Below are positions 1,044-53,379 of a stretch of DNA of 64,000 nucleotides, one piece after another. The stretch comes from Leclercia sp. LSNIH1. GTDB taxonomy: Bacteria; Pseudomonadota; Gammaproteobacteria; Enterobacterales; Enterobacteriaceae. The notes beneath the pieces are model-generated. The model was not told where the DNA came from and did not search any database. It was given only the letters and a program-made list of their open reading frames with translations. Positions within the stretch are counted from its first letter, which is position 1, and every line of letters begins with the position of its first letter. Made by a program: the position numbers and the translations under genes. The stretch is taken from positions 1,674,001 through 1,738,000 of the forward strand of contig NZ_CP026167.1 in the NCBI RefSeq assembly GCF_002902985.1, read 5' to 3'.

Positions 1044-1078
1044 AAAAATGCCAGTCATCAGGTGACTGGCATTTTTTC
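1044..1078. terminator. Bidirectional terminator between ispH and the LysR gene
   Basis: A perfect 10-bp stem (1048-1057 with 1063-1072) and a 5-base loop are flanked by A-rich and T-rich runs, so it can act on both strands. The stop codon of the convergent LysR gene (1058-1060 on the plus strand) lies in the loop. Confidence 0.85.
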
Positions 1079-1960
1079 ATTCAGATAGTTGATCATGGCT
1101 CGCATTCTGGCTGGCATATGCTTGTTACGCGTCCAGAGCAGCCATAAATCGCCCGAATAGCTGCTGATAAACGTCCACTCCGGCAGAACCTGTACTATTT
1201 CCCCTTTTTCAAGCGCCTCACGCGCCGTAAACAGCGGTAAACTCCCGATACCTACATGGTGTTTGACCGCATCCAGCCGCACGCCCGTGTGGTTAGCCGC
1301 GTAGCGGCCGTGTGTCTGTACCATCTCCGTTTTTCCCTGCGAGGTAAATTTCCAGCGTGAATCGGCCGGGGTTTCACCGAGCGAAATACAACTATGCCCC
1401 CGGAGGTCGTGCGGATGCTGAGGCGTGCCTGCGCGACGAAGGTATTCTGGCGTCGCGCAAATAATATGGGTTACCGGCATCAGCGGTTTTCCGTACAGGC
1501 CTGGCGAAGGGGTATCGGTGATCCGCAATGCCAGATCGACACCGTCATCGATCAGATCCATGTAGCGATCTTCTAGGCGCAGGCAGACATCTATTTGCGG
1601 ATAGCGCGCCAGGAATGCTGGCATCAGCGGATGGATCACGAACCGTCCCACGGCTTTCGGTACGCTTATCGTGAGCTTTCCCTGCGCAATGGTTTGCAGA
1701 CTGCTGCCGGAATCCATTGCCTGTTGGGCCGCGTCCAGCATATCCAGGGCATGTTCATAGACCGATTTTCCGGTTTCGGTAAGCGCCAGTTTGCGCGTGG
1801 TACGGTTCAGTAACTTACACCCCATCTCCTTCTCCAGGCGTGAAACACAGCGGCTGATCGCTGAGGGGGTCGCGCCCGTAATACGGGCTACGGTTGAAAA
1901 ATTGCCATGTTCGACAATGGTAACGAAGGTCGCGAGATCGGGAAGCAGTGCATGTTTCAT
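1058..1960 (-). CDS. LysR-family transcriptional regulator
   Basis: A 300-residue protein with the LysR layout. The N-terminal winged helix-turn-helix covers about residues 1-60 (FSTVARITGATPSAISRCVSRLE). A linker helix follows, then a periplasmic-binding-protein-like effector domain from about residue 90 to the end. It resembles the large DmlR/YafC-like clade with the NRTTRKLALTETG wing, but I cannot name an orthologue. It diverges from the alanyl-tRNA editing gene across about 92 bp, the usual arrangement for a LysR regulator and its target, so regulation of that neighbour is an inference. Its stop codon is embedded in the shared terminator with ispH. The effector is unknown. Confidence 0.9.
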   Translation of the reverse strand: MKHALLPDLATFVTIVEHGNFSTVARITGATPSAISRCVSRLEKEMGCKLLNRTTRKLALTETGKSVYEHALDMLDAAQQAMDSGSSLQTIAQGKLTISVPKAVGRFVIHPLMPAFLARYPQIDVCLRLEDRYMDLIDDGVDLALRITDTPSPGLYGKPLMPVTHIICATPEYLRRAGTPQHPHDLRGHSCISLGETPADSRWKFTSQGKTEMVQTHGRYAANHTGVRLDAVKHHVGIGSLPLFTAREALEKGEIVQVLPEWTFISSYSGDLWLLWTRNKHMPARMRAMINYLNEKMPVT

Positions 1961-2052: not shown

Positions 2053-2694
2053 ATGACAGAACGACTTTATTACATCAGTGAAGCGACGGAAGGCCGCGCG
2101 AAAGTCATCCGTTGCACTGAAGAGGCGGATGGCCGTTACGCCGTCGAGCTGGATCAAACCCTTTTCCATCCGCAGGGTGGCGGACAACCAGCAGATCGGG
2201 GCTTCATCGCTGGGATCGCGGTGGAGAGCGTGAACCTGCGTGGAGAGCAGGTCATTCACATTCTGGCCCGGCCGCTTATGCCTGGTGAGGTGGACATTCA
2301 GGTGGATAAAAGTGCGCGGGTGCGACATTCCCGCTGGCACAGCGCAGGCCATTTGATCGGTTATGCCGGCGAGCGATGTGGTTGGGAACCGGTAAAAGCC
2401 CACCACTGGCCCGGTGAAGGACGAATTACCTTTACGGCCCGGGACCTTAATAGCGCAATGCCTGATGCTAGCGCGCTGACAGTTCTTATTAACGGCTGGA
2501 AAGCGGACAATCTGCCCCGTCATACAGCAATAGAAGCGGGCAGACGCCAGGTTCGCTTTGGCGATCTTCCTGCTTATGCCTGTGGCGGAACGCATGTTAG
2601 CCAGCTGGCGGAAATAGGTGAGATGGAGATCCTGGGGATGAAAATAAAAAAAGGGCAGTTGGTCGTCACTTATGCCCTTCACGAGCAGGCGTAA
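2053..2694 (+). CDS. AlaX-type alanyl-tRNA trans-editing protein
   Basis: A 213-residue free-standing relative of the alanyl-tRNA synthetase editing domain. Members hydrolyse mischarged Ser- or Gly-tRNA(Ala). The zinc-binding signature is complete: HSAGH at residues 96-100 (HxxxH) and CGGTH at 177-181 (CxxxH). The conserved FHPQGGGQPAD segment lies at residues 38-48. The ATG follows a GAGGAGAAC ribosome-binding site. It is divergent from the LysR gene. Such proteins are duplicates of an activity already present in AlaRS, so a role under serine/alanine imbalance is family knowledge, not visible here. Substrate preference (Ser or Gly) cannot be read from the sequence. Confidence 0.88.
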   Translation: MTERLYYISEATEGRAKVIRCTEEADGRYAVELDQTLFHPQGGGQPADRGFIAGIAVESVNLRGEQVIHILARPLMPGEVDIQVDKSARVRHSRWHSAGHLIGYAGERCGWEPVKAHHWPGEGRITFTARDLNSAMPDASALTVLINGWKADNLPRHTAIEAGRRQVRFGDLPAYACGGTHVSQLAEIGEMEILGMKIKKGQLVVTYALHEQA

Positions 2695-2744
2695 CTGGAG
2701 CGTGATTAACCCGACAGAGCGGAAGGCTTCGCGGGAGGGGGACA

Positions 2745-2760
2745 GGTTAATCTGGTAAGC
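2745..2760. promoter_or_regulatory. Operator-like site upstream of the cupin isomerase
   Basis: GGTTAATCTGGTAAGC matches the palindromic sites beside the LacI gene (reverse-strand reading GGTTAATCGAATAACC) at about 12 of 16 positions, with an intact left half. It lies 50 bp before the small open frame and about 140 bp before the isomerase start. This suggests that the plus-strand isomerase belongs to the same regulon as the PTS operon. The right half is poor, so chance similarity remains possible. Confidence 0.4.
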
Positions 2761-2794: not shown

Positions 2795-2905
2795 ATGAAT
2801 CCTGATATTACCCCGCCACCCCAGGTGGCATCGGCCGGCGGTTATGCGCTTCGCGTATTTGCCGCTGAACTTCACCCACAGGGATGGGAGGTCAGCCATG
2901 CTTAA
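2795..2905 (+). CDS. Possible 36-residue protein coupled to the cupin isomerase gene
   Basis: ATG preceded by GCCGGAGATAAAC opens a 36-codon frame (MNPDITPPPQVASAGGYALR...). It ends 8 bases inside the following gene, so its stop (2903-2905) overlaps the start of the isomerase (2898). A good ribosome-binding site plus a stop/start overlap is typical of translational coupling. The peptide has no recognisable domain and no membrane segment. It could be a small protein, a coupling leader, or an accidental frame. Confidence 0.35.
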   Translation: MNPDITPPPQVASAGGYALRVFAAELHPQGWEVSHA

Positions 2906-3668
2906 CGTTGGGCTGGATATGACCATTACACACCGTCCATTGGGTTTTAGCTACGGAGGCGACGTCACTGGCCCGATGCCGGAGATCCGAACGCTGGATC
3001 AGATCCGTCCGTCGCTGCGCAATCCGGACTGCGAAGGGCCAGAGCAGGTGTATGCCATCGCGATGGACGTGGCGAGGCTTGCAGACAGAGAGGAGCTGGA
3101 AAAGCGGAAACTGCTGTTTGGCGTGGTCACCTATGCCGCGGGTACGCTCGGCGATGAGCCGGTGCGTAGCCAGGGGCATGTTCACCGTATCAGCCAACAC
3201 AGTGGATGGTCACCGCCCGAACTGTATGAGATCTGGCAGGGGAAAGCGATCGTCTACATGCAAGAGTATGTTGATGACGATCCCGGCCGCTGCTTTGCGG
3301 TGCTGGCGGGGCCGGGTGAAAAGGTACTGGTGCCGCCGGGGTGGGGCCATGCCACTATTTCCGCCTCGCCGGAGGAGCCCTTAACCTTTGGCGCCTGGTG
3401 CGACAGAGAATATGGCTTTGAGTATGAGGCCATTCGCGCCCGCAGGGGGCTCGCCTGGTATCCGCTGGTGCAGGGGAGGCATATCGTCTGGCAACATAAT
3501 AAGCATTATATGGCAGGCAGGCTGCAGATGATTACGCCGCGCTGCTACAGCGAGTTTGGCATCACCGATGCGCCTGTCTACCAGCAGTTTATTGACGATC
3601 CCGCCCGCTTTCAGTTTATCTCCCGCCCGGATAAAACGGCGGAGCTATGGCGCAACTTCCATCCGTAA
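2898..3668 (+). CDS. Cupin-type glucose-6-phosphate isomerase
   Basis: A 256-residue protein of the archaeal-type (cupin) phosphoglucose isomerase family, unrelated to the usual bacterial Pgi. It would interconvert glucose 6-phosphate and fructose 6-phosphate, or a related sugar phosphate, using a divalent metal. The cupin metal ligands are present: His94 and His96 in GHVH, Glu108 in PPELYE, and His151 in VPPGWGH. The ATG at 2898 is chosen over upstream in-frame starts because GGGAGGT lies just ahead and the homologous N-terminus begins here. It converges on the PTS operon, and the two share a terminator. Since enterobacteria already have Pgi, a dedicated pathway with the PTS next door is likely but inferred. 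Confidence 0.85.
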   Translation: MLNVGLDMTITHRPLGFSYGGDVTGPMPEIRTLDQIRPSLRNPDCEGPEQVYAIAMDVARLADREELEKRKLLFGVVTYAAGTLGDEPVRSQGHVHRISQHSGWSPPELYEIWQGKAIVYMQEYVDDDPGRCFAVLAGPGEKVLVPPGWGHATISASPEEPLTFGAWCDREYGFEYEAIRARRGLAWYPLVQGRHIVWQHNKHYMAGRLQMITPRCYSEFGITDAPVYQQFIDDPARFQFISRPDKTAELWRNFHP

Positions 3669-3672
3669 CGTA

Positions 3673-3693
3673 AGCCGGGGCATCGCCCCGGCT
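3673..3693. terminator. Hairpin between the cupin isomerase and the PTS IID gene
   Basis: A 9-bp GC-rich stem (AGCCGGGGC/GCCCCGGCT) with a 3-base loop lies between the convergent genes, followed by CGTTTAA. No long T run is seen, so strength is uncertain. Confidence 0.65.
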
Positions 3694-3696
3694 CGT

Positions 3697-4515
3697 TTAA
3701 CCGGCAAACAGACCGGATGCCACGCCAAGCGCGGCCAGCACCAGCAGTAGCAGCATGGCTTTCACCGGCGAGACCCCTTTTTTTGCCATCAGATACCAGG
3801 TGCCGAGCACGACCGCCAGCGGCAGCAACTGCGGGAAGATCCCATCGAGCATCTGCTGAACGTGGATATTCACCCCATCTTTAGTGATGAACTCCAGCCC
3901 GGTGCCCAGCTTCACGTAGCTTGCCGCCACGCCGCCCATGACGAAAACCCCTAGCAGCGAGAGCGCCTCACGCAGGCGTGCGGATTTGCTGCTTACCAGC
4001 ATCTCCACCGAGCCGGAACCCATCCGGTAGCCCTTAAGAAACAGGAACCAGGAGCCAGGGAGCACGATCGCCAGCCAGGCGATAGCATAAAAAAGCGGCC
4101 CGAGAATATTCCCCCCCGCCGCCAGCGCCATTCCGATACTCAGCAGAATGGGGATCAGCATGCCGGGGATCATTGAGTCGCCGATGCCGGCGATCGGCCC
4201 CATCAGGCCCACCTTCAGGGTATTGATGGTGTCGCCGTCAATGGGTTCACCGTTGGCTTTTTTCTCTTCCAGGCCCAGCACCATGCCGTTAACTATCGCG
4301 CCAATCTGCGGTTCTGTGTTGTAGAACGAGGCATGACGGCGCAGCATTTCGGTGCGCTGCGTTGCGTCCGGATAGAGCTTTTTTGCCACCGGCAGCATGC
4401 TCAGGCAAAAGCCGAAGGATTCCAGGCGTTCAAAGCTCATCGACGACAGGTTATGCATCATCCATGCCCGCCAGCAGCGGCGCAGATCCTTACGGGTGAG
4501 TTTACGTTCTTCCAT
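3697..4515 (-). CDS. PTS mannose-family transporter subunit IID
   Basis: A 272-residue inner-membrane subunit that, with IIC, forms the sugar channel of a mannose/fructose/sorbose-family phosphotransferase system. It starts MEERKLTRKDLRRCWRAW. The family features are visible: a soluble amphipathic N-terminal part with the LSSMSFERLESFGF stretch, then GLMGPIAGIGDSMIPGMLIPI, then hydrophobic segments in the last third. It is the last gene of a five-gene operon. Its start overlaps the IIC stop region by one base, so translation is coupled. The substrate cannot be told from this subunit alone. ManZ, SorM, AgaD and GfrD are relatives of the same architecture. Confidence 0.92.
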   Translation of the reverse strand: MEERKLTRKDLRRCWRAWMMHNLSSMSFERLESFGFCLSMLPVAKKLYPDATQRTEMLRRHASFYNTEPQIGAIVNGMVLGLEEKKANGEPIDGDTINTLKVGLMGPIAGIGDSMIPGMLIPILLSIGMALAAGGNILGPLFYAIAWLAIVLPGSWFLFLKGYRMGSGSVEMLVSSKSARLREALSLLGVFVMGGVAASYVKLGTGLEFITKDGVNIHVQQMLDGIFPQLLPLAVVLGTWYLMAKKGVSPVKAMLLLLVLAALGVASGLFAG

Positions 4516-5312
4516 CAGAATTCATCCTCGTCGTCGTGCGTCGGTCTTGCGGCAACGGGTTGCGGTGCCTCCGGCTTGTAGTTGTAATGGATCAGCGCCA
4601 GCAGCGCGCCGACAATCACCAGCGCCACCATGTTCAGCTTCAGAAAGACAATGCAGACGAAACCGACCAGGAAGTAGATGAGCATGGTATAGCTTTTGAT
4701 GATCTGCTTTAACAGAATGGCGATGCCCACGGCAGGCAGGATGCCGCCCAGCACGTTCATCGTGGAGAGCACGATTTGTGGCAGGCTATCCATAAAGCTG
4801 CTGATGTACTGGGCACCAAAATAGACCGCGATGAAGGCCGGAACAAAGCGCAGTACAAAGTTCATCGCCTGCGGCCAGATCGCGCTGTTGAGAAAGAGTC
4901 CCCGTTCGTCGCCGCGTTCCAGCGCAACATCCGCCCGGTGGTTCCAGTACGAATTCAGGACCATCATGGCGTTAAAGAGGATGGTGCCGGCGATGCCAAT
5001 GGTGGCCGCCAGGGCAACGGCGACTTCGGGACCTTTACCGGAGAGAATGCCAAGGGCTATCGCAGGCCAGGCGACGAAGTTTAAATCCGCTGGCATCGAG
5101 CCGCCCGGGGTGACCATGGCGATATAGACAGCCTGAACCGCCACGCCAATCATGATACCGGTTTTTACGTCGCCAAGGATAAGCCCTACCAGCATGCCCG
5201 AAATCAACGGCCTGGAGATGAGATACCAGCCGCCTGTCAGGCCGAACAGCCAGGGACTGCTGAGCGCCCCGAGATAGCAAAACAGGCCGATTAATGATGC
5301 TTCGACAATCAT
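4515..5312 (-). CDS. PTS mannose-family transporter subunit IIC
   Basis: A 265-residue polytopic membrane protein (about seven or eight hydrophobic stretches) that carries the sugar-binding path of the mannose-family PTS. Typical motifs are the N-terminal GLTGGWYLISRPLISGMLVGLILGD region and the VTPGGSMPADLNFVAWPAIALGI loop. The tail is hydrophilic and acidic, ending HDDEDEF. It lies 10 bp after IIB and overlaps IID by one base, consistent with equimolar IIC/IID production. No frameshift is seen. Confidence 0.93.
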   Translation of the reverse strand: MIVEASLIGLFCYLGALSSPWLFGLTGGWYLISRPLISGMLVGLILGDVKTGIMIGVAVQAVYIAMVTPGGSMPADLNFVAWPAIALGILSGKGPEVAVALAATIGIAGTILFNAMMVLNSYWNHRADVALERGDERGLFLNSAIWPQAMNFVLRFVPAFIAVYFGAQYISSFMDSLPQIVLSTMNVLGGILPAVGIAILLKQIIKSYTMLIYFLVGFVCIVFLKLNMVALVIVGALLALIHYNYKPEAPQPVAARPTHDDEDEF

Positions 5313-5322
5313 TTCTGGCTCC

Positions 5323-5817
5323 TTATTTTATTTTTTGTTTAGCGTCCTGCCAGCTAAAGAAGCTGGCATCCGGCACCAGGCGAAACTCAATCACATGGCC
5401 CCGTTCGGCAAGCCACTCAAAGGCTGCGGCCTCCTCAGCGCTGACGGACTGGTTAGGCCCGATGGTCGTGGTGTTGGCGCGGGCGCTCATTGGCCCGACA
5501 TTAATTTTCCCGTTGCTGTTTTTCAGGCTAATGCCCGCCTGTTCAATGCGCTGCAGCGTGACCGGTGATTTGCCGATCACGAAATAGCGTTTCTCGCTGG
5601 CAATGACCTTCGGCAGCTTCTCAATGGCCGTAGCGGTATCAAATAGCCACACTTTGGTATCGGATACCGCCCCTTTCATGACCGACGAGAGCAGTGGGTC
5701 GGCCGCGACGGCATCGTCAATGGCGACGATGCCGTCGCAGGGCAGCTCTTTTGCCCAGCGTGTGACCAGCTGGCCGTGGATTACCCTGTCATCAATGCGT
5801 ACGAAAGAAATCGTCAT
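5323..5817 (-). CDS. PTS mannose-family phosphotransfer subunit IIB
   Basis: A 164-residue cytoplasmic protein of the PTS-IIB sorbose/mannose family. It passes phosphate from IIA to the incoming sugar. The active-site stretch FVRIDDRVIHGQLVTRW is intact, with His14 as the predicted phosphorylation site. The rest of the family core (SVMKGAV, INVGPMSARANTT) follows. It is encoded as a separate gene rather than fused to IIA as in ManX. It sits 10 bp downstream of IIA in the operon. Confidence 0.93.
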   Translation of the reverse strand: MTISFVRIDDRVIHGQLVTRWAKELPCDGIVAIDDAVAADPLLSSVMKGAVSDTKVWLFDTATAIEKLPKVIASEKRYFVIGKSPVTLQRIEQAGISLKNSNGKINVGPMSARANTTTIGPNQSVSAEEAAAFEWLAERGHVIEFRLVPDASFFSWQDAKQKIK

Positions 5818-5827
5818 AGCTCTCTCC

Positions 5828-6256
5828 TTAAAAATCGTCTGTCTGTTCGGTCACCACGTGCCTGGCCTGGATGAGCGTGGGGAAAGTCAGTTCAAGAAGC
5901 TGTGCGGCGGCGTGTTGCACATCGTCCAGCTCAGTGACCTCATCGGTTTGCAGCAGCATCGGGAAATTCACCCCCGCTACCACGGCGATGGGCGGCTGGG
6001 TTAAGGGGTTAAACGCGGCTTCGCAGGCCACGTTCCAGGGCGTGCCGCTCTGCATATCGCACAGCACCAAAATGCCGCTGGCCCCCTCGCTGGCCTGCGC
6101 CAGAGCGGTAGTGAAATCATGGCGAAATCCTTCAATGCCTCTCTCTCCGGTGAGGCATACGGCGCGTAGATTTGGCAGTTCGCCATAGACCATCTCCCCG
6201 CTTTCCAGCAGCGCGGCGGCCAGGGGGCCGTGTGTGGCAACGATAAACTGAATCAT
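5828..6256 (-). CDS. PTS mannose-family phosphotransfer subunit IIA
   Basis: A 142-residue cytoplasmic EIIA domain that receives phosphate from HPr. The N-terminus MIQFIVATHGPLAAALLESGEM contains the phosphorylated histidine (His9) in the family's ATHG context. The DMQSGTPWNVA and VAGVNFPML motifs of the mannose family also appear. It lies two bases downstream of the isomerase fusion gene, so the enzyme and transporter are made from one message. As a free-standing IIA it resembles AgaF and GfrA more than ManX. Confidence 0.93.
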   Translation of the reverse strand: MIQFIVATHGPLAAALLESGEMVYGELPNLRAVCLTGERGIEGFRHDFTTALAQASEGASGILVLCDMQSGTPWNVACEAAFNPLTQPPIAVVAGVNFPMLLQTDEVTELDDVQHAAAQLLELTFPTLIQARHVVTEQTDDF

Positions 6257-6258
6257 GC

Positions 6259-7998
6259 TTACCCCCTTATCCAGGCTTTAACGGTGGCCAGTTGCTGGCC
6301 GATGCCTTTACCCCAGGGAGAGATGCGGTATTCGCCCACGGCAGCAGGGACGATAAAGGTTTCGGCGTAATGCACCACGAAGGGTTCAAAGGCGTTGTCA
6401 GGACTGTCCACTCGCGCTTCTGCCCCCTCCACCAGGTTCAGCACGTTTACGCCGCCTTCCGTGTTGTGCAGGACTGGTTCGCTGAACCAGTGACGGCGGG
6501 TTTCAATAAATTCGCGTTCGTGCAGGCCGGTGCGCTCTTCGCGCCAGCCCTTTCCTTCGCTGACAGGCTCAAACTGGTTCACGAGATGCTTCTGTACCCA
6601 GCGGGTGTCACGCTGCCAGTCAATGACCTGCTCGCCATGCTCGAGGTGAACAGGGCGGGGCAGACCGTCCATGCCGAGACGGCCCCAGTCCCAGAGTTTG
6701 AAGGTGAAAATGTAAGGCGTGGCGCTGATCTCCAGCACCATCGTGCCGGAACCTGAGCAGTGAACCGTGCCGGCGGGGATCAGGAAGTGATCGTGTTTAT
6801 GCGCCGGGATCTTGTTCACAAAGCGGGCGTCATCGAAGGCTTTTTCACCCTGAGCGGCGCGTTTGAGATCGTCCATCATTGCCTGTGGGTGGGTGCCGCT
6901 CACGGTGCCAAGGTAAACCACCGCGCCGGGCTCCGCCTCCAGAATGTAGTAACTCTCATCCTGGGTGTAGTGCATACCGAACTGCTGCTGGATGTACTCC
7001 GTTACCGGGTGCACCTGAAAGCTCAGGTTCTGCCCGCCGATGGTATCGAGAAAGTCGAAGCGGATTGGGAATTCTGCGCCAAACCGGGCGTGAACCTTTT
7101 CCCCCAGCAGCGAGCGGGGCTGAAGCAGAACCAGGTCCTGGGAGGGGATCTCGATCCGCACCGCGCCAAAACGCAGTAACAGGCTGTTTTCCTCGGGCAC
7201 GCAATCAAAACACCACGCGTAGTTGGGCGCGGCGGGATCGAGATCGAACTGTTGTTTCATCCACTGGCCGCCCCAGACGCCGGGATCGAAGAAGGGCACC
7301 ACGCGGAAAGGACGCCGGGTGGTGTGCGCCAGGCCCGCGCGCAGGGCGTCTCCGCAGACCATCGCCGGTGCGTTAGCGAGGGTGGTATCCAGCAGGAAAT
7401 CAGCGCGTTTAAGGAGCGGTGTTTTGTGGCGATCGAACACCCGCCACTCAATAAAGAAGGCGCGCTTATAACGGCGGAGCATATCTTCAGTCTGGTTTTC
7501 GACGCCCCAGTTGCCCAGCTCGCCTTTGCGCATACGCTGCTGAATTTCCCAGCGCGGCAGATCGGCGTAGACCAGCACGTCGCCCGGATGGACCAGGGCA
7601 GCGCCGGAGCCATAAATCACCACCAGCCCCTCTTCACAAGCGGTGACCTGCTCTTGCAGAACCTTTAGCCTCTCCCTGTCCATAAATTCCACTAGCTGGT
7701 GGCATGAAAGCACGCCAAAAACGCGGTCATCGGTGAGGTTACGCGCCAGCATCGCATGCAGCGCATCCTCATCGCGGCGGGCCCGTTCGGCATTAATCGT
7801 CAGCGCCGGACGGAGCGATGAGAACAACATCTGCTCCAGTTCGTCGAGACGTACGCCGGGATAGCAGTCGATAACCAGCACGGTGCGTTTCGGGAGCTGT
7901 TGCTGTGCAAGCGAACGTCCAATCGCCTCCCAGCCCTGCCAGGCGCGGTGGTCGAAGCCGCTTATGTTGACTTCAGGGTGTTTATCGTAGGTGGTCAT
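6259..7998 (-). CDS. Class I mannose-6-phosphate isomerase with N-terminal nucleotide-kinase-like domain
   Basis: A 579-residue protein, well over the roughly 390 residues of ManA. The C-terminal part (from about residue 215, RPFRVVPFFDPGVWGG) is a type I phosphomannose isomerase. Its metal-site motifs are recognisable: FQVHP (Gln and His), DESYYILEAEPG (Glu) and IPAGTVHCSG (His). The first 200 residues look like a uridine-kinase-type P-loop fold. However, the Walker A position reads VLVIDCYPGVRLDEL with no GKS/T lysine, so ATP binding is doubtful. It is the first gene of the PTS operon, with AAGGAGAGAGA before its ATG and an operator-like palindrome at 8024-8039. It probably isomerises the phosphosugar delivered by the PTS. 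Confidence 0.85.
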   Translation of the reverse strand: MTTYDKHPEVNISGFDHRAWQGWEAIGRSLAQQQLPKRTVLVIDCYPGVRLDELEQMLFSSLRPALTINAERARRDEDALHAMLARNLTDDRVFGVLSCHQLVEFMDRERLKVLQEQVTACEEGLVVIYGSGAALVHPGDVLVYADLPRWEIQQRMRKGELGNWGVENQTEDMLRRYKRAFFIEWRVFDRHKTPLLKRADFLLDTTLANAPAMVCGDALRAGLAHTTRRPFRVVPFFDPGVWGGQWMKQQFDLDPAAPNYAWCFDCVPEENSLLLRFGAVRIEIPSQDLVLLQPRSLLGEKVHARFGAEFPIRFDFLDTIGGQNLSFQVHPVTEYIQQQFGMHYTQDESYYILEAEPGAVVYLGTVSGTHPQAMMDDLKRAAQGEKAFDDARFVNKIPAHKHDHFLIPAGTVHCSGSGTMVLEISATPYIFTFKLWDWGRLGMDGLPRPVHLEHGEQVIDWQRDTRWVQKHLVNQFEPVSEGKGWREERTGLHEREFIETRRHWFSEPVLHNTEGGVNVLNLVEGAEARVDSPDNAFEPFVVHYAETFIVPAAVGEYRISPWGKGIGQQLATVKAWIRG

Positions 7999-8023
7999 AG
8001 TCTCTCTCCTTCAATATTGATTA

Positions 8024-8039
8024 GGTTATTCGATTAACC
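8024..8039. promoter_or_regulatory. LacI-type operator in the leader of the PTS operon
   Basis: GGTTATTCGATTAACC is palindromic except at two positions and is centred on TCGA, as in LacI/GalR-family operators. It lies about 25 bp before the isomerase-fusion ATG. The enclosing 17-base string (8021-8037) is repeated exactly at 8143-8159. Confidence 0.7.
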
Positions 8040-8054
8040 GGCTTTGAAAAGAGT

Positions 8055-8071
8055 GGTTAACGCGATTAACC
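8055..8071. promoter_or_regulatory. Third palindromic operator-like site in the divergent region
   Basis: GGTTAACGCGATTAACC has perfect 6-bp arms (GGTTAA/TTAACC) around a 5-bp centre. The arms match the half-sites of the two flanking operators, though the spacing is one base longer. It could be an auxiliary operator or overlap one of the divergent promoters. Confidence 0.5.
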
Positions 8072-8145
8072 CGGCATTCCGCGGCATTTACGGGTAATCT
8101 GCGGCGGTTCTGTGAAGGAGGTCACAGGGAAAAATGCAAAAATTA

Positions 8146-8161
8146 GGTTATTCGATTAATC
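8146..8161. promoter_or_regulatory. LacI-type operator in the leader of the repressor gene
   Basis: GGTTATTCGATTAATC is the second copy of the operator. It differs from the first only in the next-to-last base and ends 9 bp before the AAGGAG ribosome-binding site of the repressor gene. The two copies are 122 bp apart and point to autoregulation plus control of the operon, possibly with looping. Confidence 0.7.
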
Positions 8162-8181
8162 TAAAGAAAAAAGGAGTCACC

Positions 8182-9189
8182 ATGACGGGAATAACGCTGG
8201 CGGACGTGGCAAAACGGGCAGGCGTATCAACTGCAACGGTATCAATGGTGCTGTGCAACAAGGGGCGGATCTCCCAGGCCACGCGGGAGAAAGTACTCCG
8301 GGCGCTGGACGAGACGGGCTACGTCTATAACCAGACGGCGGCTAATCTGCGCAACCGGCGAAGTAACCAGGTCGGGCTGCTGCTTCACGATATTACCAAC
8401 CCCTTCTACGGCGAAATGACGGCGGGGCTGAGCCACGAGATGGAGCGCCACGACCTGCTGCTGTTCCTGGCCAACAGCGAAGAGTCTTCATCGCGCCAGC
8501 AGAAGTTTGTTGATTCACTGATGCGCAACAACGTCTGCGGCATGGTGCTGTGTGCCGCGCGCGAAACGCCGCAGGCCTTTTTTGATGGCCTGAAGCGCCG
8601 CACTATTCCGGCCATTATGGTGGTGCGCCCGCTGAACGATCCAGATTTTGATTTCGTTGGCACTGATAACTTCCTCGGCACCCAGTTAGCCACGGAGCAT
8701 CTGTTGCGGATGGGCCATCGCCATATCGCCTTTATCGGAGGAAGCGCGCGCTCCGGCTCGCGGGCGCAGCGCCTCGGGGGATTTACCAGCAAGCTGCTGG
8801 AGTATGGCGTAACGCCGAATCCGGAGTGGATCGTCACCGCCCAGGCCAGCCAAAGTGACGGGGCGCGCGTTGCGCTGGCACTATTGTCGCGCCATCCGCA
8901 GATCACAGCGGCTATCTGTTACCAGGACATCGTGGCGCTGGGCGTTATGCAGAGTTTACGCAAGCTGGGGCGCGAGCCGGGCAGTGATTTTGCGCTGGTC
9001 GGGTTCGATGACATTACCGAAGCGGGACTGGTTCAGCCTGCGTTAACCACGGTCTCCGTGGCCGCCAAAGAGATCGGTCGTAAGGCGGGCGAGCTGCTCT
9101 TTAGCCGCATTCAGGGGAATGACGAGCCGCCAAAGCGGATCATCCTGCCCCCTACGCTGGTAGTGCGTGAATCGTGCGGTTTTCGCTGA
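8182..9189 (+). CDS. LacI-family transcriptional repressor of the sugar locus
   Basis: A 335-residue repressor. The N-terminal helix-turn-helix and hinge helix (ITLADVAKRAGVSTATVSMVL, about residues 4-60) are followed by a sugar-binding-protein-like effector domain from about residue 60 to 330 (VGLLLHDITNPFYGE, VGFDDITEAGL). Overall it is MalI/GalR-like. The ATG at 8182 is preferred to the upstream in-frame start at 8134 because AAGGAG lies 6 bases before it and the conserved N-terminus begins there. It is divergent from the PTS operon, with two near-identical operators between, so it is very probably their local repressor. The inducer is unknown. Confidence 0.9.
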   Translation: MTGITLADVAKRAGVSTATVSMVLCNKGRISQATREKVLRALDETGYVYNQTAANLRNRRSNQVGLLLHDITNPFYGEMTAGLSHEMERHDLLLFLANSEESSSRQQKFVDSLMRNNVCGMVLCAARETPQAFFDGLKRRTIPAIMVVRPLNDPDFDFVGTDNFLGTQLATEHLLRMGHRHIAFIGGSARSGSRAQRLGGFTSKLLEYGVTPNPEWIVTAQASQSDGARVALALLSRHPQITAAICYQDIVALGVMQSLRKLGREPGSDFALVGFDDITEAGLVQPALTTVSVAAKEIGRKAGELLFSRIQGNDEPPKRIILPPTLVVRESCGFR

Positions 9190-10144: not shown

Positions 10145-10197
10145 TCATAGTTACCCTTCGTGATGTGGTTATTGCAGTCGTAATTAATTGATTGCAC

Positions 10198-10226
10198 AGG
10201 GCAATATTTTATTGCCCTTTAATTTT
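10198..10226 (+). terminator. dapB terminator
   Basis: The stem AGGGCAAT/ATTGCCCT with a short AT loop is followed by TTAATTTT, 54 bp after the dapB stop. Confidence 0.8.
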
Positions 10227-10306
10227 GAAGTCTTTGGCATAGTTTTTATATTAACTTCCCATAAATCTTCTTTTTCACCTCTATTTTTGTTTCAAACTTG
10301 TGAATT

Positions 10307-11766: not shown

Positions 11767-14991
<3,225 letters not shown>

Positions 14992-15001
14992 CAAGCCTGT
15001 T

Positions 15002-15072
15002 ATCGTAGGGCGGGTAAGCGAAAGCGACGCCGGGCAAATGGCGGGTGGCGCTTCGCTTACCCGCCCTACGAT
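15002..15072. repeat. Perfect 21-bp inverted repeat with REP-like core after carB
   Basis: Bases 15002-15022 and 15052-15072 are exact reverse complements (arms ATCGTAGGGCGGGTAAGCGAA). They enclose 29 bases, including GACGCCGGGCAAATGGCGGGTGGCGC. The GC-rich GCCGGG/GGCGGGTGGCG wording resembles enterobacterial REP/BIME units. There is no following T run, so a role in 3'-end protection of the carAB message is more likely than simple termination. Confidence 0.85.
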
Positions 15073-15179
15073 GGCTGCCTCCCTCTTCAGAACCTTCTGC
15101 TTTCTCATCTCCTATCAGTCAGTTAGCCTAAAATTATCAGGTCGATAATTAAATCCAACTGAAAAGCAGGGAGAACACC

Positions 15180-15413
15180 ATGCGTAAGAATCTTTTGCTG
15201 ACTTCAATTTTTACTGCCGCAGCACTATTTACCGTTGCAGGTTGTTCCTCTAACCAGGCGGTGAAAACTACTGACGGTAAAACCATCGTCACCGACGGAA
15301 AACCGCAGGTAGATGACGATACTGGAATGATGTCTATTGATAATGCCGAAACCGGTCAGACGGAACAGATTAACCGCGATCAGGTGAAATCCATGGGTGA
15401 ACTGGATAACTGA
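15180..15413 (+). CDS. YgdI/YgdR-family small lipoprotein
   Basis: A 77-residue precursor with a signal peptide and a clear lipobox: the hydrophobic stretch LLTSIFTAAALFTVAGC places the lipidated cysteine at residue 22. The mature part (SSNQAVKTTDGKTIVTDGKP...) has the short SH3-like beta layout of the YgdI/YgdR (DUF903) lipoproteins, with the terminal region QINRDQVKSMGELDN. It lies alone between carB and the convergent autotransporter gene, with a GGGAGA ribosome-binding site. Function in this family is unknown; the location would be the inner leaflet of the outer membrane unless a retention signal applies. The Ser-Ser after Cys favours the outer membrane. Confidence 0.88.
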   Translation: MRKNLLLTSIFTAAALFTVAGCSSNQAVKTTDGKTIVTDGKPQVDDDTGMMSIDNAETGQTEQINRDQVKSMGELDN

Positions 15414-15446
15414 TAAAAAAATGCAGTGGCCTGCGCCACTGCATCG
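15414..15446 (-). terminator. Terminator of the autotransporter gene
   Basis: A perfect 10-bp stem (ATGCAGTGGC/GCCACTGCAT, 15421-15430 with 15435-15444) and a 4-base loop are followed on the minus strand by seven T. It lies about 20 bp beyond the autotransporter stop. On the plus strand it has no T run. Confidence 0.85.
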
Positions 15447-15464
15447 GTTGTTGCGGTAACAGGA

Positions 15465-18320
15465 TTACCAGCGGTGATTTAACAGGATATGACCGCCATA
15501 GGCGTCGTAGCTGTTTTCGCCCCATTCGCCGCTGGCGCGCAGCGAGATCAGGGTGGTCTCGTTCAGCTTGCCCGTTACGCCCAGCTCCAGCTGTGCGCGG
15601 TCGTCCGGGGTATCGTTGCTGAAGGTTTCGCCGTTGAAAGCGATGTCGTTCTGTCCTGCCCCTTTCAGCCAGTTAACTGCCACATAAGGCTGCCACGCCT
15701 GAACATCTTTCTGGTCAAAGTAGCTGGATTTCACCCCTACGCGGCCAAGTACGCTGTCGTTATCAAGGGTAGAGATCCGTACGCCGTCGGCATCCTTATG
15801 ATTTTCCTGGTCCAGGTAGCTGTAAATCGCCTGAATTTGCGGCTCGATTTTCCAGGTTCTCTCGTTTTCTGAATCAACAATCCAGGCATGGCCCGCTTCC
15901 AGCGACACGGCAAAACCGTGGCTGTTGTAAGATTCATTGTCGCGCCCATCGCTTCTCAGGCCGTTGTGATACCAGCCGTAAGAGGCCCAGCTGTCGATAT
16001 AGCTGCCTTTACGCAGCTTCTGATCTTCCTGCCAGGTGGCGTAGACGCCAACGTTCACACCATCGACCTTGCCGTGCGCGGAACGGTGGCTGCCGGTAGA
16101 GGTGGAGTCGGTTTTCGCCTGGCCTGCGCCAAACATCATCCCACTATGCAGAACACCAGTATCCATCTGCTTGCTGATGAAATCGCTGCCAACCTGCATG
16201 ACGTACTGGGTCGTGTCATAGTTTACTTTTCCGCCTGCCACGTCATTGTCGTGATAGCGGCCTTTGACATACATCCAGGTATTGAGATCCTCACCATCGC
16301 GCAGCGTCAGCTGATCGCGATCGTCACGTTTGTGCAGGAACATCCCCTGGGCTGCCAGGTAGTTACCCATATAGGCGCCGACTTCAGGGGCCATGTTAGA
16401 CGGTGCTGGTGGGGTATAGCCACCATCATCAGGGTTGGTATTGTTGCCGTTATCATCCGGCTCTGGTGCCGGCTGAGGGGCTGGCGTTGGGTCTGGCGTT
16501 GGATCGGGTGTTGGCTCGGGCGCAGGGGAAGGCGAAGTGTTCGCAGATTCCAGGTACCAGTTACCGTCGGTGTGCTTGTTCAGGCTGTATTCCCAGGCAC
16601 CGGCAACAACAGGTCGGGAAAGGGAGAATGCGGCGTCGGAGTTACCACTAACTTTGACAACCTGCATACCGTTAACGGTTTGCGCACCCAGACCACCGAT
16701 ATTCGAGATGCGGATACCGGACTGGCCGGCGCTATCACCGGTAATGGTCAGGTGATCGGTAGCAGAATCATCCTCTCCCAACACGCTGTTCATCAGGATC
16801 TGGCTACCGCTCGTCCCGGTATAGTTGCCGTTAATGACGAATCTGTTGCCGACGTGGTCATTAAGACCATTGACCTGCAGCGTACCGCTGTTGGTCACAT
16901 TACCGTTGATGGTATTCGCAGTTGAAGGCGTTACGCTATTGCCAGAGATGGCATTCCAGGAGGCGAGGGTACCGCCGTTAAGAATATTGATGTTGTTATT
17001 AACGGTTCCGGCGCTGGCAAAGGTTGCTCTATTGCCAACGGTGACGGTAGCGGTATTGCCGCTGGTGCCCAGGGTTGCGCCTTCTGCGATCAGGGTGGTA
17101 CCGCTATTCAGTAGGGTATTGCCGGTATAGCTGTTATTGCCGGTCAGGGTTAACAGATTAGCATCGATTTTTTTAACGTTGCCGCTGCCGGTAATATCCC
17201 CTGCGAAAACAGAGTCGGAGCCCTGGTTGAACGTGAAGGTGCCGTTATTGGTCAGGGTGCCGGTCAGAAAGCCTGTTTGGTCACCATTACCCAGCTGAAG
17301 ATGGCCTGCCTCTGAAATCAGGGTATTACCGGCGTCGTTTTTTACGATGCCCGCCAGAGTCAGTTTACCTGAGTTGATCTTAATTGAGTCACCCGCGCCG
17401 ATAATATCGATGTTGCCGGTCAGTGACCAGTCAGTACCGTCCATAGACAGCGAAGCAAAGCCATCACCTGCGTTCAGGCCGCGGAAATTGCTGTCTTCTG
17501 AGCCGCTATTCAGTAACGCTAAGGTGTTTGTTGTGGAATTGGTGGAGATAACATCGCCATCAAGCACAGATCCTTGCCCCAAAGTCAGCGTATTAGCCTG
17601 GGTACTCTCAAAGGTAATTGCACTTTCTGAACCTTTTATCAGGCCATTATTTCCTATATTAAGTCTGTGATTACCCGTGACGACAACACCGTTAACATCA
17701 GCCTCGATCTGCCCCCGATTATTAAGATTACTTTTGCCTGAAGCATCAAGCAGGATACCGTTATCGGTGCCGCCTTTTAACATTCCATCATTATCAATGA
17801 TGACACTGGCACCGGAGGTGAACGCGGTTTTACCCTGGATCGTACCGGTATTTGCGATGTTGACGTTACTTGAATCTTCATGAATTTTAATACCGTATTC
17901 TGCCCCCAGAATTTTACCGGCGTTGTTTATGTCCCCACCCATATTTTCGACATAAATTCCGGTGGCACCCGTGGATTCGATTAATCCACTTTGCTGGTTA
18001 TTTATGATTACTTTTTGTGAGCCAGTAGCGATAAGCATTCCATCGCCTACGCCAGACACTTTCCCATAGTTCGTGACACCGTCAATTACCTGCCCTTTGA
18101 CCGTAACAGTGGGCATGTCAGTGGAATTGGTAATGCTGACATCTTCAGGAATGATGTATGTATTATCTGATGAAAAAGTCTGTGGGGCATCCGTGTTGTC
18201 ATTAATTATGATTTCTGCGGATACCATTAACGGGGTAAATACTATTAATGCTGATAAAGCTGGAAAAATATTTTTCAACGATGCCGTTGTCTTATTTAAT
18301 TGAGGGGTTTTGCTTGTCAT
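15465..18320 (-). CDS. Type Va autotransporter (pertactin-like passenger, beta-barrel translocator)
   Basis: A 951-residue secreted surface protein. A signal peptide (hydrophobic IFPALSALIVFTPLMVSA) is followed by a long beta-helix passenger, rich in N-G-T/N-N-G repeats (about residues 30-600). A proline-rich linker (PAPEPTPDPTPDPTPAPQP) follows, then a C-terminal autotransporter barrel of about 280 residues ending in the outer-membrane signature HILLNHRW. The ATG at 18320 is chosen; an in-frame GTG two codons upstream is possible. It is monocistronic and flanked by an AT-rich upstream region, as is common for horizontally acquired surface proteins. It may mediate adhesion or autoaggregation, but no specific family is recognised. 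It replaces the cai/fix genes found here in E. coli. Confidence 0.9.
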   Translation of the reverse strand: MTSKTPQLNKTTASLKNIFPALSALIVFTPLMVSAEIIINDNTDAPQTFSSDNTYIIPEDVSITNSTDMPTVTVKGQVIDGVTNYGKVSGVGDGMLIATGSQKVIINNQQSGLIESTGATGIYVENMGGDINNAGKILGAEYGIKIHEDSSNVNIANTGTIQGKTAFTSGASVIIDNDGMLKGGTDNGILLDASGKSNLNNRGQIEADVNGVVVTGNHRLNIGNNGLIKGSESAITFESTQANTLTLGQGSVLDGDVISTNSTTNTLALLNSGSEDSNFRGLNAGDGFASLSMDGTDWSLTGNIDIIGAGDSIKINSGKLTLAGIVKNDAGNTLISEAGHLQLGNGDQTGFLTGTLTNNGTFTFNQGSDSVFAGDITGSGNVKKIDANLLTLTGNNSYTGNTLLNSGTTLIAEGATLGTSGNTATVTVGNRATFASAGTVNNNINILNGGTLASWNAISGNSVTPSTANTINGNVTNSGTLQVNGLNDHVGNRFVINGNYTGTSGSQILMNSVLGEDDSATDHLTITGDSAGQSGIRISNIGGLGAQTVNGMQVVKVSGNSDAAFSLSRPVVAGAWEYSLNKHTDGNWYLESANTSPSPAPEPTPDPTPDPTPAPQPAPEPDDNGNNTNPDDGGYTPPAPSNMAPEVGAYMGNYLAAQGMFLHKRDDRDQLTLRDGEDLNTWMYVKGRYHDNDVAGGKVNYDTTQYVMQVGSDFISKQMDTGVLHSGMMFGAGQAKTDSTSTGSHRSAHGKVDGVNVGVYATWQEDQKLRKGSYIDSWASYGWYHNGLRSDGRDNESYNSHGFAVSLEAGHAWIVDSENERTWKIEPQIQAIYSYLDQENHKDADGVRISTLDNDSVLGRVGVKSSYFDQKDVQAWQPYVAVNWLKGAGQNDIAFNGETFSNDTPDDRAQLELGVTGKLNETTLISLRASGEWGENSYDAYGGHILLNHRW

Positions 18321-45082: not shown

Positions 45083-45127
45083 TTTGCACCTCATTGTTTG
45101 AGAGTGGCAAAGGATTTTGAGCAACAG

Positions 45128-45212
45128 CCTCAAATCCCTTCGCCGGCGTTATCCGGATCAGGTTCGACGGGTATTTTCTCAGCACACGCTTTCACGCAGC
45201 ACCCCGTTGAGA
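45128..45212 (-). promoter_or_regulatory. TPP riboswitch (thi box) in the thiBPQ leader
   Basis: On the minus strand the leader holds the conserved thi-box parts: GGGGTGC near the 5' end, then CTGAGAAAATACCCG, AACCTGATCCGGATAA and CCGGCGAAGGGATTTGAG. It ends about 45 bases before the thiB GTG. In E. coli this element (sroA) represses translation when TPP binds; the same mode is likely here. Confidence 0.95.
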
Positions 45213-45252
45213 ACGGCAGTATTGTAATGATTTGGTGAATATTACGAAAGTG

Positions 45253-46975: not shown

Positions 46976-47222
46976 GATGAAGCGAGGAGGTAAATATGAA
47001 GAGGTCTGCCACAAATCAGTTTTACCAACAGTACTTCTCAGCGACAAAGGGAGTGTCCTGGCTGGCCCGCCGGTGCGCAGAGCAGCGGCTGAAAATACTG
47101 GAAGAGCTGATGCAGTGGGAGGTGACAACGTCGACCTCGGAACGCTGAATTGCTTCGATCATGTGTGACTGAGTATTGGTGCTAATCACCACGCCAGCAG
47201 GTATCATCTGCTGGCTTTTTTC
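46976..47222 (+). ncRNA. sgrS: SgrS small RNA (dual-function, encodes SgrT)
   Basis: Hfq-dependent RNA that blocks ptsG and manXYZ translation during glucose-phosphate stress. The 5' end GATGAAGCGAGG matches E. coli SgrS. The pairing region TGTGTGACTGAGTATTGGTG (47162-47181) is identical to the segment that base-pairs with ptsG mRNA. A terminator hairpin (GCCAGCAG/CTGCTGGC) with TTTTTT closes it. The total of about 247 nt is some 20 nt longer than in E. coli, because the coding part is longer. The 5' end is inferred by similarity. Confidence 0.93.
46996..47148 (+). CDS. sgrT: SgrT peptide, inhibitor of glucose transport
   Basis: A 50-residue peptide encoded inside SgrS. In E. coli the 43-residue SgrT binds PtsG and stops glucose entry. 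Here it reads MKRSATNQFYQQYFSATKGV and then SWLARRCAEQRLKILEELMQ, ending WEVTTSTSER. It keeps the QFYQ-YF, WL and LMQW positions of E. coli and adds about five residues at the N-terminus. The ribosome-binding site GAGGAGG is stronger than the E. coli one, suggesting good translation. Confidence 0.85.
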   Translation: MKRSATNQFYQQYFSATKGVSWLARRCAEQRLKILEELMQWEVTTSTSER

Positions 47223-53208: not shown

Positions 53209-53239
53209 AAAAAAACCCGCGCAGTGGCGCGGGTTTTTT
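53209..53239 (-). terminator. Leucine attenuator terminator
   Basis: A GC-rich stem (CCCGCGC/GCGCGGG) with an AGTG-type loop has long A/T runs on either side. It lies between leuL and leuA. On the minus strand it is followed by seven T and forms the terminator arm of the attenuator. Confidence 0.9.
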
Positions 53240-53258
53240 GTCTTAACCAGAGAACGAT

Positions 53259-53345
53259 TCAACGCTGAATTTCGCCCGCCAGTCTACCGCGCACAGTGGA
53301 TGCGTTTAGTAGTAGTAGACCTGTGAAACGAATGCTGCGAATCAT
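53259..53345 (-). CDS. leuL: Leucine operon leader peptide
   Basis: A 28-residue leader peptide, MIRSIRFTGLLLLNASTVRG and eight more residues. It has four leucines in a row encoded by rare CTA codons. When charged leucyl-tRNA is scarce, the ribosome stalls here and the downstream terminator does not form. Length and layout equal E. coli leuL. The SD-like CTGGAGC lies seven bases before the ATG on the minus strand. Confidence 0.95.
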   Translation of the reverse strand: MIRSIRFTGLLLLNASTVRGRLAGEIQR

Positions 53346-53379
53346 GAATCAAGCTCCAGATAAATAAGATATGCTTTTA

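Follow-up and report, generated by a model that had tools for sequence, protein, structure and literature searches.

Gene content of the ispH-dapB locus

The window analysed here is a 64,000-nucleotide stretch of Leclercia sp. LSNIH1 (contig NZ_CP026167.1, positions 1,674,001 to 1,738,000). Between ispH and dapB it carries genes for a mannose-family phosphotransferase system (PTS), two isomerase-like proteins, encoded by genes that we call ManAf and cupB, and a repressor of the LacI family. Read from ispH, the order is LysR, AlaX-like, cupB, IID, IIC, IIB, IIA, ManAf and the repressor gene. A first-pass annotation, made from the letters of this DNA alone, had described separate IIA, IIB, IIC and IID genes, a ManA-like fusion protein and a facing gene for a cupin-type glucose-6-phosphate isomerase (GPI). 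The open reading frames (ORFs) and family assignments agree with that description and the genes are real, but the LacI-family repressor gene, which lies within the range given for the locus, and what is left of cupA, a second gene of the cupin type, had been overlooked.

The PTS genes IID (3697..4515), IIC (4515..5312), IIB (5323..5817) and IIA (5828..6256) lie on the minus strand in one operon with ManAf (6259..7998, minus strand). All four PTS products, IID included, exceed the Pfam gathering scores of the mannose-family PTS (PF03613, 296.8 bits; PF03609, 220.2 bits; PF03830, 125.5 bits; PF03610, 63.9 bits, respectively). cupB is convergent with this operon. Its ORF spans 2844-3668 on the plus strand, and the likely start at 2898 gives a protein of 256 amino acids (2898..3668) that passes the cupin GPI model PF06560 (64.2 bits; cut-off 20.7).

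Within the locus, as the first-pass annotation had stated, neither the ORFs nor the Pfam searches revealed a hydrolase, a kinase, a deaminase or an aldolase. Its expectation that ManA and Pgi are duplicated was also borne out: the genome has one classical manA (C1:3068061, PF20511) and one classical pgi (C1:1207034, PF00342) elsewhere. Four mannose-family IID genes are present in the genome including the locus copy, and one of the other three is ManZ-like. Two further mannose-family PTSs, L083 (C1:2432151) and L084 (C1:849231), pass no NCBIfam cut-off; in L083 a 353-amino-acid frame lies immediately 3' of IID.

ManAf combines a kinase-fold domain with a phosphomannose isomerase-like domain

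The best named matches to ManAf, a protein of 579 amino acids, are 99% identical and come from Leclercia, and databases label the family 'class I mannose-6-phosphate isomerase'. The second part of the protein resembles ManA of B. subtilis, and its predicted fold matches 1qwr with a Foldseek TM of 0.83 by target length. In a profile alignment, Q97, H99, E134, H255 and E264 of ManA correspond to Q328, H330, E348, H413 and E423 of ManAf, all of which are invariant in 50 sequences. The first four of these residues hold the zinc in ManA; the zinc-site residues of type I phosphomannose isomerase (PMI) are kept in ManAf as Q328, H330, E348 and H413.

With full-length ManAf as the query, PMI and other cupin chains took up the Foldseek hits, and the N-terminal domain (residues 1 to about 225) was therefore modelled by itself. 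Modelled in this way, it has a predicted fold of the PanK/uridine kinase type. The Walker A motif GxxxxGK[ST] is absent from the domain, in which the loop reads CYPGVRLDE; the family consensus also lacks GK[ST], Y46 is invariant and G48 nearly so. R149, W150, K178 and R186 are invariant as well. Lacking an ATP-binding P-loop, the domain more likely serves ligand binding or assembly than acts as a kinase.

Neighbours of ManAf in related loci

To place the locus in context we used the best 80 of 578 confirmed ManAf loci, which are the best-scoring and not a random sample, and counted neighbours within 6.5 kb. A mannose-type PTS was found near ManAf in 32 of these loci, a LacI-type gene in 35, a ROK gene in 32 and a GH38 gene in 22; the ROK, GH38 and LacI counts are from tblastn at E 1e-15 and may include non-orthologous members, such as the LacI genes of L028 and L057. 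cupA was present in 39 loci and cupB in 33, with both cupins in 32, cupA without cupB in seven and cupB without cupA in one. Uncommon here are the ManAf family and the cupins that accompany it. Eight loci have ManAf and both cupins without a mannose-type PTS: L036 (Priestia), L037 (Spirochaetes), L039 (Clostridia), L048 (Chlorobiota), L050 (Hymenobacter), L066, L069 and L073.

Across phyla, the genes next to ManAf repeatedly include MngA/MngB-like genes and those for ROK kinases and GH38 alpha-mannosidases. The Chlorobiota locus, for example, has the order GH38, cupA, ROK, ManAf, cupB and a sugar transporter. Two Enterobacter loci, L010 and L011, carry a GH38 gene and an MngA-like enzyme II (EII) gene within the ispH-dapB locus itself; the best NCBIfam models are the mannosylglycerate hydrolase for GH38 and the mannosylglycerate PTS for EII, with all scores below the equivalog cut-offs. 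In L010 the MngA-like EIIABC and GH38 genes are oriented divergently from cupA and separated from it by two operator sites. The order in L011 is LacI, an MngA-like EII fragment, GH38, ManAf and IIABCD, with GH38 in line with the mannose-type PTS genes. The fragment (4383-5327 of L011), a single frame of 314 amino acids, retains only EIIA and the last part of EIIC and adjoins the full-length GH38 gene. In Aeromonas (L027 and L029), a relative of the LacI-family repressor (69% identity) and ManAf occur with a glucose-type EIIBC and GH38, and in Photobacterium (L026) LacI and ManAf occur with an MngA-like EIIABC and GH38.

A different arrangement is seen in L009, where EIIC and GH1 genes lie between IID and cupB (12443-17736 of that locus); beyond cupA there is an EIIA-IIB frame that is truncated where the locus ends, and two LacI operator sites lie in the interval.

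LacI and ManAf stay constant as the transporter varies, from which we infer that these loci share an intermediate. The neighbouring alpha-mannosidases and MngA/MngB-like genes suggest that this intermediate is mannose-6-phosphate. The same isomerases could in principle serve a biosynthetic route from fructose-6-phosphate to mannose-6-phosphate, for GDP-mannose and polysaccharides, as they are reversible and as a cupin phosphoglucose isomerase (PGI) and a PMI connect glucose-6-phosphate, fructose-6-phosphate and mannose-6-phosphate. The PTS, GH38 and ROK partners are catabolic, however, and the locus has no polysaccharide genes; we consider this direction very improbable.

Candidate LacI operators connect the PTS operon, the repressor and the cupin genes

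The repressor passes the MalI subfamily model NF007449 (320.2 bits; cut-off 310). Two candidate operators precede the genes that flank them: GGTTATTCGATTAACC at 8024-8039 before ManAf, and its one-base variant GGTTATTCGATTAATC at 8146-8161 before the repressor gene. The repressor ORF extends over 8134-9189 on the plus strand, but its likely start is 8182 (8182..9189), since a start at 8134 would make the operator part of the coding sequence and the sequence AAAGGAG lies ahead of 8182. The operator pattern had 4 matches over two strands compared with 0.30 in shuffles. Genome-wide, the only zero-mismatch matches to the pattern GGTTAWTCGATTAAYC are the two window sites, and at 2 mismatches there are 11 strand-matches compared with 2 for the backward control.

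The sites recur in the related loci. Where LacI and a mannose-type PTS occur together, a site with at most 2 mismatches lies between LacI and ManAf in 28 of 29 loci, the exception being L028; where both cupins are also present, a site within the same limit lies 5' of cupA in 22 of 23, the exception being L032. The cupin-upstream site of the window is degenerate (2737..2752). Aligned to the intact site of L001, it retains one half, GGTTAATC at 2745-2752, and the other half is lost both here and in G423, whose ManAf (95%) is the most similar among the relatives in the genus. On the basis of these sequence matches, candidate LacI operators tie the repressor gene to the PTS operon and, in relatives, to the two cupin genes as well, and the LacI-family protein probably binds at them. 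A study of LacI regulons (PMC4052901) includes a 'ManR' group assigned to mannose and mannosides; this group could not be linked to the repressor of the locus.

A second cupin gene has been deleted from this genome

In related loci cupA, which encodes a protein of about 187 amino acids, lies directly 5' of cupB. The cupA product of L001 matches a solved archaeal PGI with an E-value of 3.9e-36 over residues 16-169 of 187, whereas cupB does so at 6.9e-5 only; cupA is hence the canonical member of the pair and cupB the divergent one. The cupin metal ligands HxH, E and H are invariant in 35 of 35 cupB and 39 of 39 cupA sequences. In the window, cupA is reduced to 36 in-frame codons on the plus strand (2795..2905). 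Compared with G423, in which cupA is intact, 453 bp have been lost from between short stretches that resemble each other; this loss keeps the reading frame and leaves the overlap with the start of cupB in place. The genome has no other cupA match. A sequence cluster (c7) that had been considered as an antisense artefact turned out to be cupA, and the artefact explanation was rejected.

The deletion is unusual for the genus. In a sample of 50 genomes, from a collection with one genome per species, ManAf was found in 16; cupA was present in 15 of these 16 and in none of the 34 genomes without ManAf, the sole ManAf-positive genome without cupA being the one under study. In the family as a whole, 66 genomes had a ManAf match, 11 of them weak. 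Among the remaining 55, with matches counted anywhere in the genome, cupA was found in 50 and cupB in 52 (that of G171 at 7.5e-4 only); G000 and G355 have cupB without cupA, and G004, G054 and G107 have neither. A reading based on a single genome can thus mislead, as the second cupin gene of 15 other ManAf-bearing genus genomes is deleted here. The first-pass annotation had also proposed a complete dedicated route. The evidence supports a dedicated, repressor-linked uptake-and-isomerisation unit that duplicates housekeeping functions, but compared with the set in relatives it lacks one gene.

The deletion, together with the standing of this genome within the genus sample, raises the question of whether this strain is losing the locus by decay, its cupin arm dead (cupA deleted, operator half lost) and only the PTS and ManAf of consequence. 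We regard this as improbable. The reading frames of cupB and of all five PTS-ManAf operon genes are open, and the deletion disturbed neither the frame nor the overlap with the start of cupB. The argument from the degraded operator is weakened because in G423, where cupA is intact, this half is degraded too, and the existence of single-cupin loci among the related loci implies that one cupin may suffice.

The PTS belongs to a branch associated with ManAf

No NCBIfam subunit model assigns IIA, IIB, IIC or IID to a named-substrate subfamily at its cut-off. IIC is 22% identical to ManY of E. coli and IID 34% identical to ManZ. In trees of 12 proteins each, in which one tip (L022) extends a few codons beyond the stop, IIC and IID group with other ManAf-linked PTSs from proteobacteria and Firmicutes, with a support of 1.000 in both trees. 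This clade is separate from ManYZ, AgaCD and the two other mannose-type PTSs of the same genome. The first-pass annotation would have given up its substrate proposal had IIC and IID grouped tightly with a PTS of known substrate and no need for isomerases, and we observed no such grouping. The gene set offers a handle on a branch of the mannose-family PTS that has no named-substrate match.

Proposed pathway and its substrate

We propose that the locus forms a catabolic unit under LacI repression, with mannose-6-phosphate at its centre, and that IIABCD imports a gluco-series hexose, most probably D-mannose. Our confidence in this proposal is evenly divided between belief and doubt. In the proposed mechanism, the IIABCD complex would import and phosphorylate the hexose, and ManAf, as a PMI-like protein with a conserved zinc site, would convert mannose-6-phosphate to fructose-6-phosphate. 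cupA and cupB would normally interconvert fructose-6-phosphate and glucose-6-phosphate, a task that would fall to cupB alone in this strain. The repressor would bind both operators in the interval that separates its gene from ManAf, and a pathway intermediate, probably mannose-6-phosphate, would release it. Mannose-6-phosphate can inhibit phosphoglucose isomerase, and we would guess that the cupins are kept beside Pgi to sustain isomerase flux when mannose-6-phosphate is high. In Gilliamella, mannose use needs mannose-6-phosphate isomerase (PMC5090037). In the open-licence literature we recognised no study on this gene set.

Several observations weigh against the mannose proposal. The window itself holds no proof of mannose, and a second mannose route is redundant because a manXYZ-type system and manA are already in the genome. 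The best named model for IIC is not a mannose one; it is the N-acetylgalactosamine protein AgaW, at 148.5 bits against a cut-off of 300. ManAf falls below the PMI Pfam cut-off (PF20511, 15.9 against 22 bits), and no NCBIfam model matches it (E 0.01). Furthermore, K86, K132 and R274 of ManA, which we took as active-site positions from the titles of mutant structures, correspond to D315, Q346 and K434 of ManAf, each invariant in 50 sequences. The change from K86 to aspartate is a charge reversal, and ManAf therefore need not be an ordinary PMI. Among the related loci, L009 has a GH1 glycosidase and a lactose/cellobiose-type EIIC, and L028 and L031 have a gene of the N-acetylglucosamine-2-epimerase family with cupA and without cupB, so other substrates are possible; L040, one of the 80 loci, has none of the marker genes.

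The altered positions of ManAf, the lack of a named-substrate match for the IIC/IID branch and the presence of housekeeping manA, pgi and manXYZ-type genes would all fit the substrate that the first-pass annotation had put forward: an unusual hexose or derivative, with both isomerases acting on its 6-phosphate. C1-C2 isomerases, however, admit only the 6-phosphates of glucose, mannose and fructose to glycolysis; allose, altrose, galactose, talose, gulose and idose need an extra epimerase, or a kinase and an aldolase, and the locus encodes no epimerase, kinase or aldolase. Given this limit to what such isomerases can do on their own, and because the neighbours of ManAf include GH38, ROK and MngA/MngB-like genes, mannose-6-phosphate is the likelier node, and we find a rare hexose distinctly unlikely.

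Somewhat less unlikely, in our view, is that the PTS imports another gluco-series sugar (fructose or glucose) or a small mannoside, the hydrolase gene for which lies elsewhere or has disappeared from this lineage. The GH38 genes within the same locus in the two Enterobacter, with the L011 copy in line with the mannose-type PTS genes, point in this direction, as do the non-mannose model closest to IIC and the GH1 gene of L009. Against this, GH38 has no match anywhere in the genome, and four of the 80 loci have LacI and the mannose-type PTS with neither cupins nor GH38, from which the PTS and ManAf seem able to stand alone.

The features of ManAf also allow a bolder suggestion, which we advance only tentatively. 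ManAf may be an enzyme class of its own, in which a PMI-like domain with a rebuilt active site is gated by a P-loop-less kinase-fold domain that senses a sugar phosphate. With cupA and cupB it would form a self-contained shunt between mannose-6-phosphate, fructose-6-phosphate and glucose-6-phosphate, insulated from ManA and Pgi, spread across phyla and joined to many kinds of transporter. The kinase-fold domain without a P-loop, the changed active-site positions and the steady partnership with cupins make the annotation 'class I mannose-6-phosphate isomerase' testable.

Other features of the window

Between ispH and the cupin genes lie the LysR gene (1058-1960, minus strand) and the gene for an AlaX-like editing domain (2053-2694, plus strand); both have close relatives in four of the 80 related loci (L001, L004, L005 and L017). 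Rfam identified SgrS, a small RNA linked to glucose-phosphate stress, at 46976-47222 (155.1 bits), together with DapZ (10150-10227), a TPP riboswitch (45117-45216) and a leucine operon leader (53209-53359).

Comparison with known systems

The locus shares with ManXYZ and ManA of E. coli the PTS family of IIA, IIB, IIC and IID, the type I PMI fold and the expected chemistry from mannose through mannose-6-phosphate to fructose-6-phosphate. It differs in having IIA and IIB as separate genes, a LacI-family repressor of its own and cupin GPI genes, and ManAf differs from ManA in its additional N-terminal domain and its changed active-site positions. That domain has the predicted fold of the P-loop kinases of the pantothenate kinase, uridine kinase and phosphoribulokinase group, but lacks Walker A and is fused to the PMI-like domain. 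The repressor resembles MalI in passing NF007449, but its neighbouring genes differ from the malX and malY of MalI. The cupins share the metal-ligand pattern of the Thermococcus and Pyrococcus PGIs (PF06560), to which the L001 cupA match extends the likeness, whereas the window retains only the divergent cupB; a cupin PGI of Salmonella has reportedly been characterised.

The system for 2-O-alpha-mannosyl-D-glycerate, MngA/MngB, is related to the locus through the MngA/MngB-like genes found within it in L010 and L011 or beside ManAf in L026. The E. coli MngA/MngB system is not known to include ManAf or cupins and has a GntR-type regulator, and the window locus in turn has neither a fructose-type EIIABC nor a GH38 gene. 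The two routes would nevertheless both yield mannose-6-phosphate.

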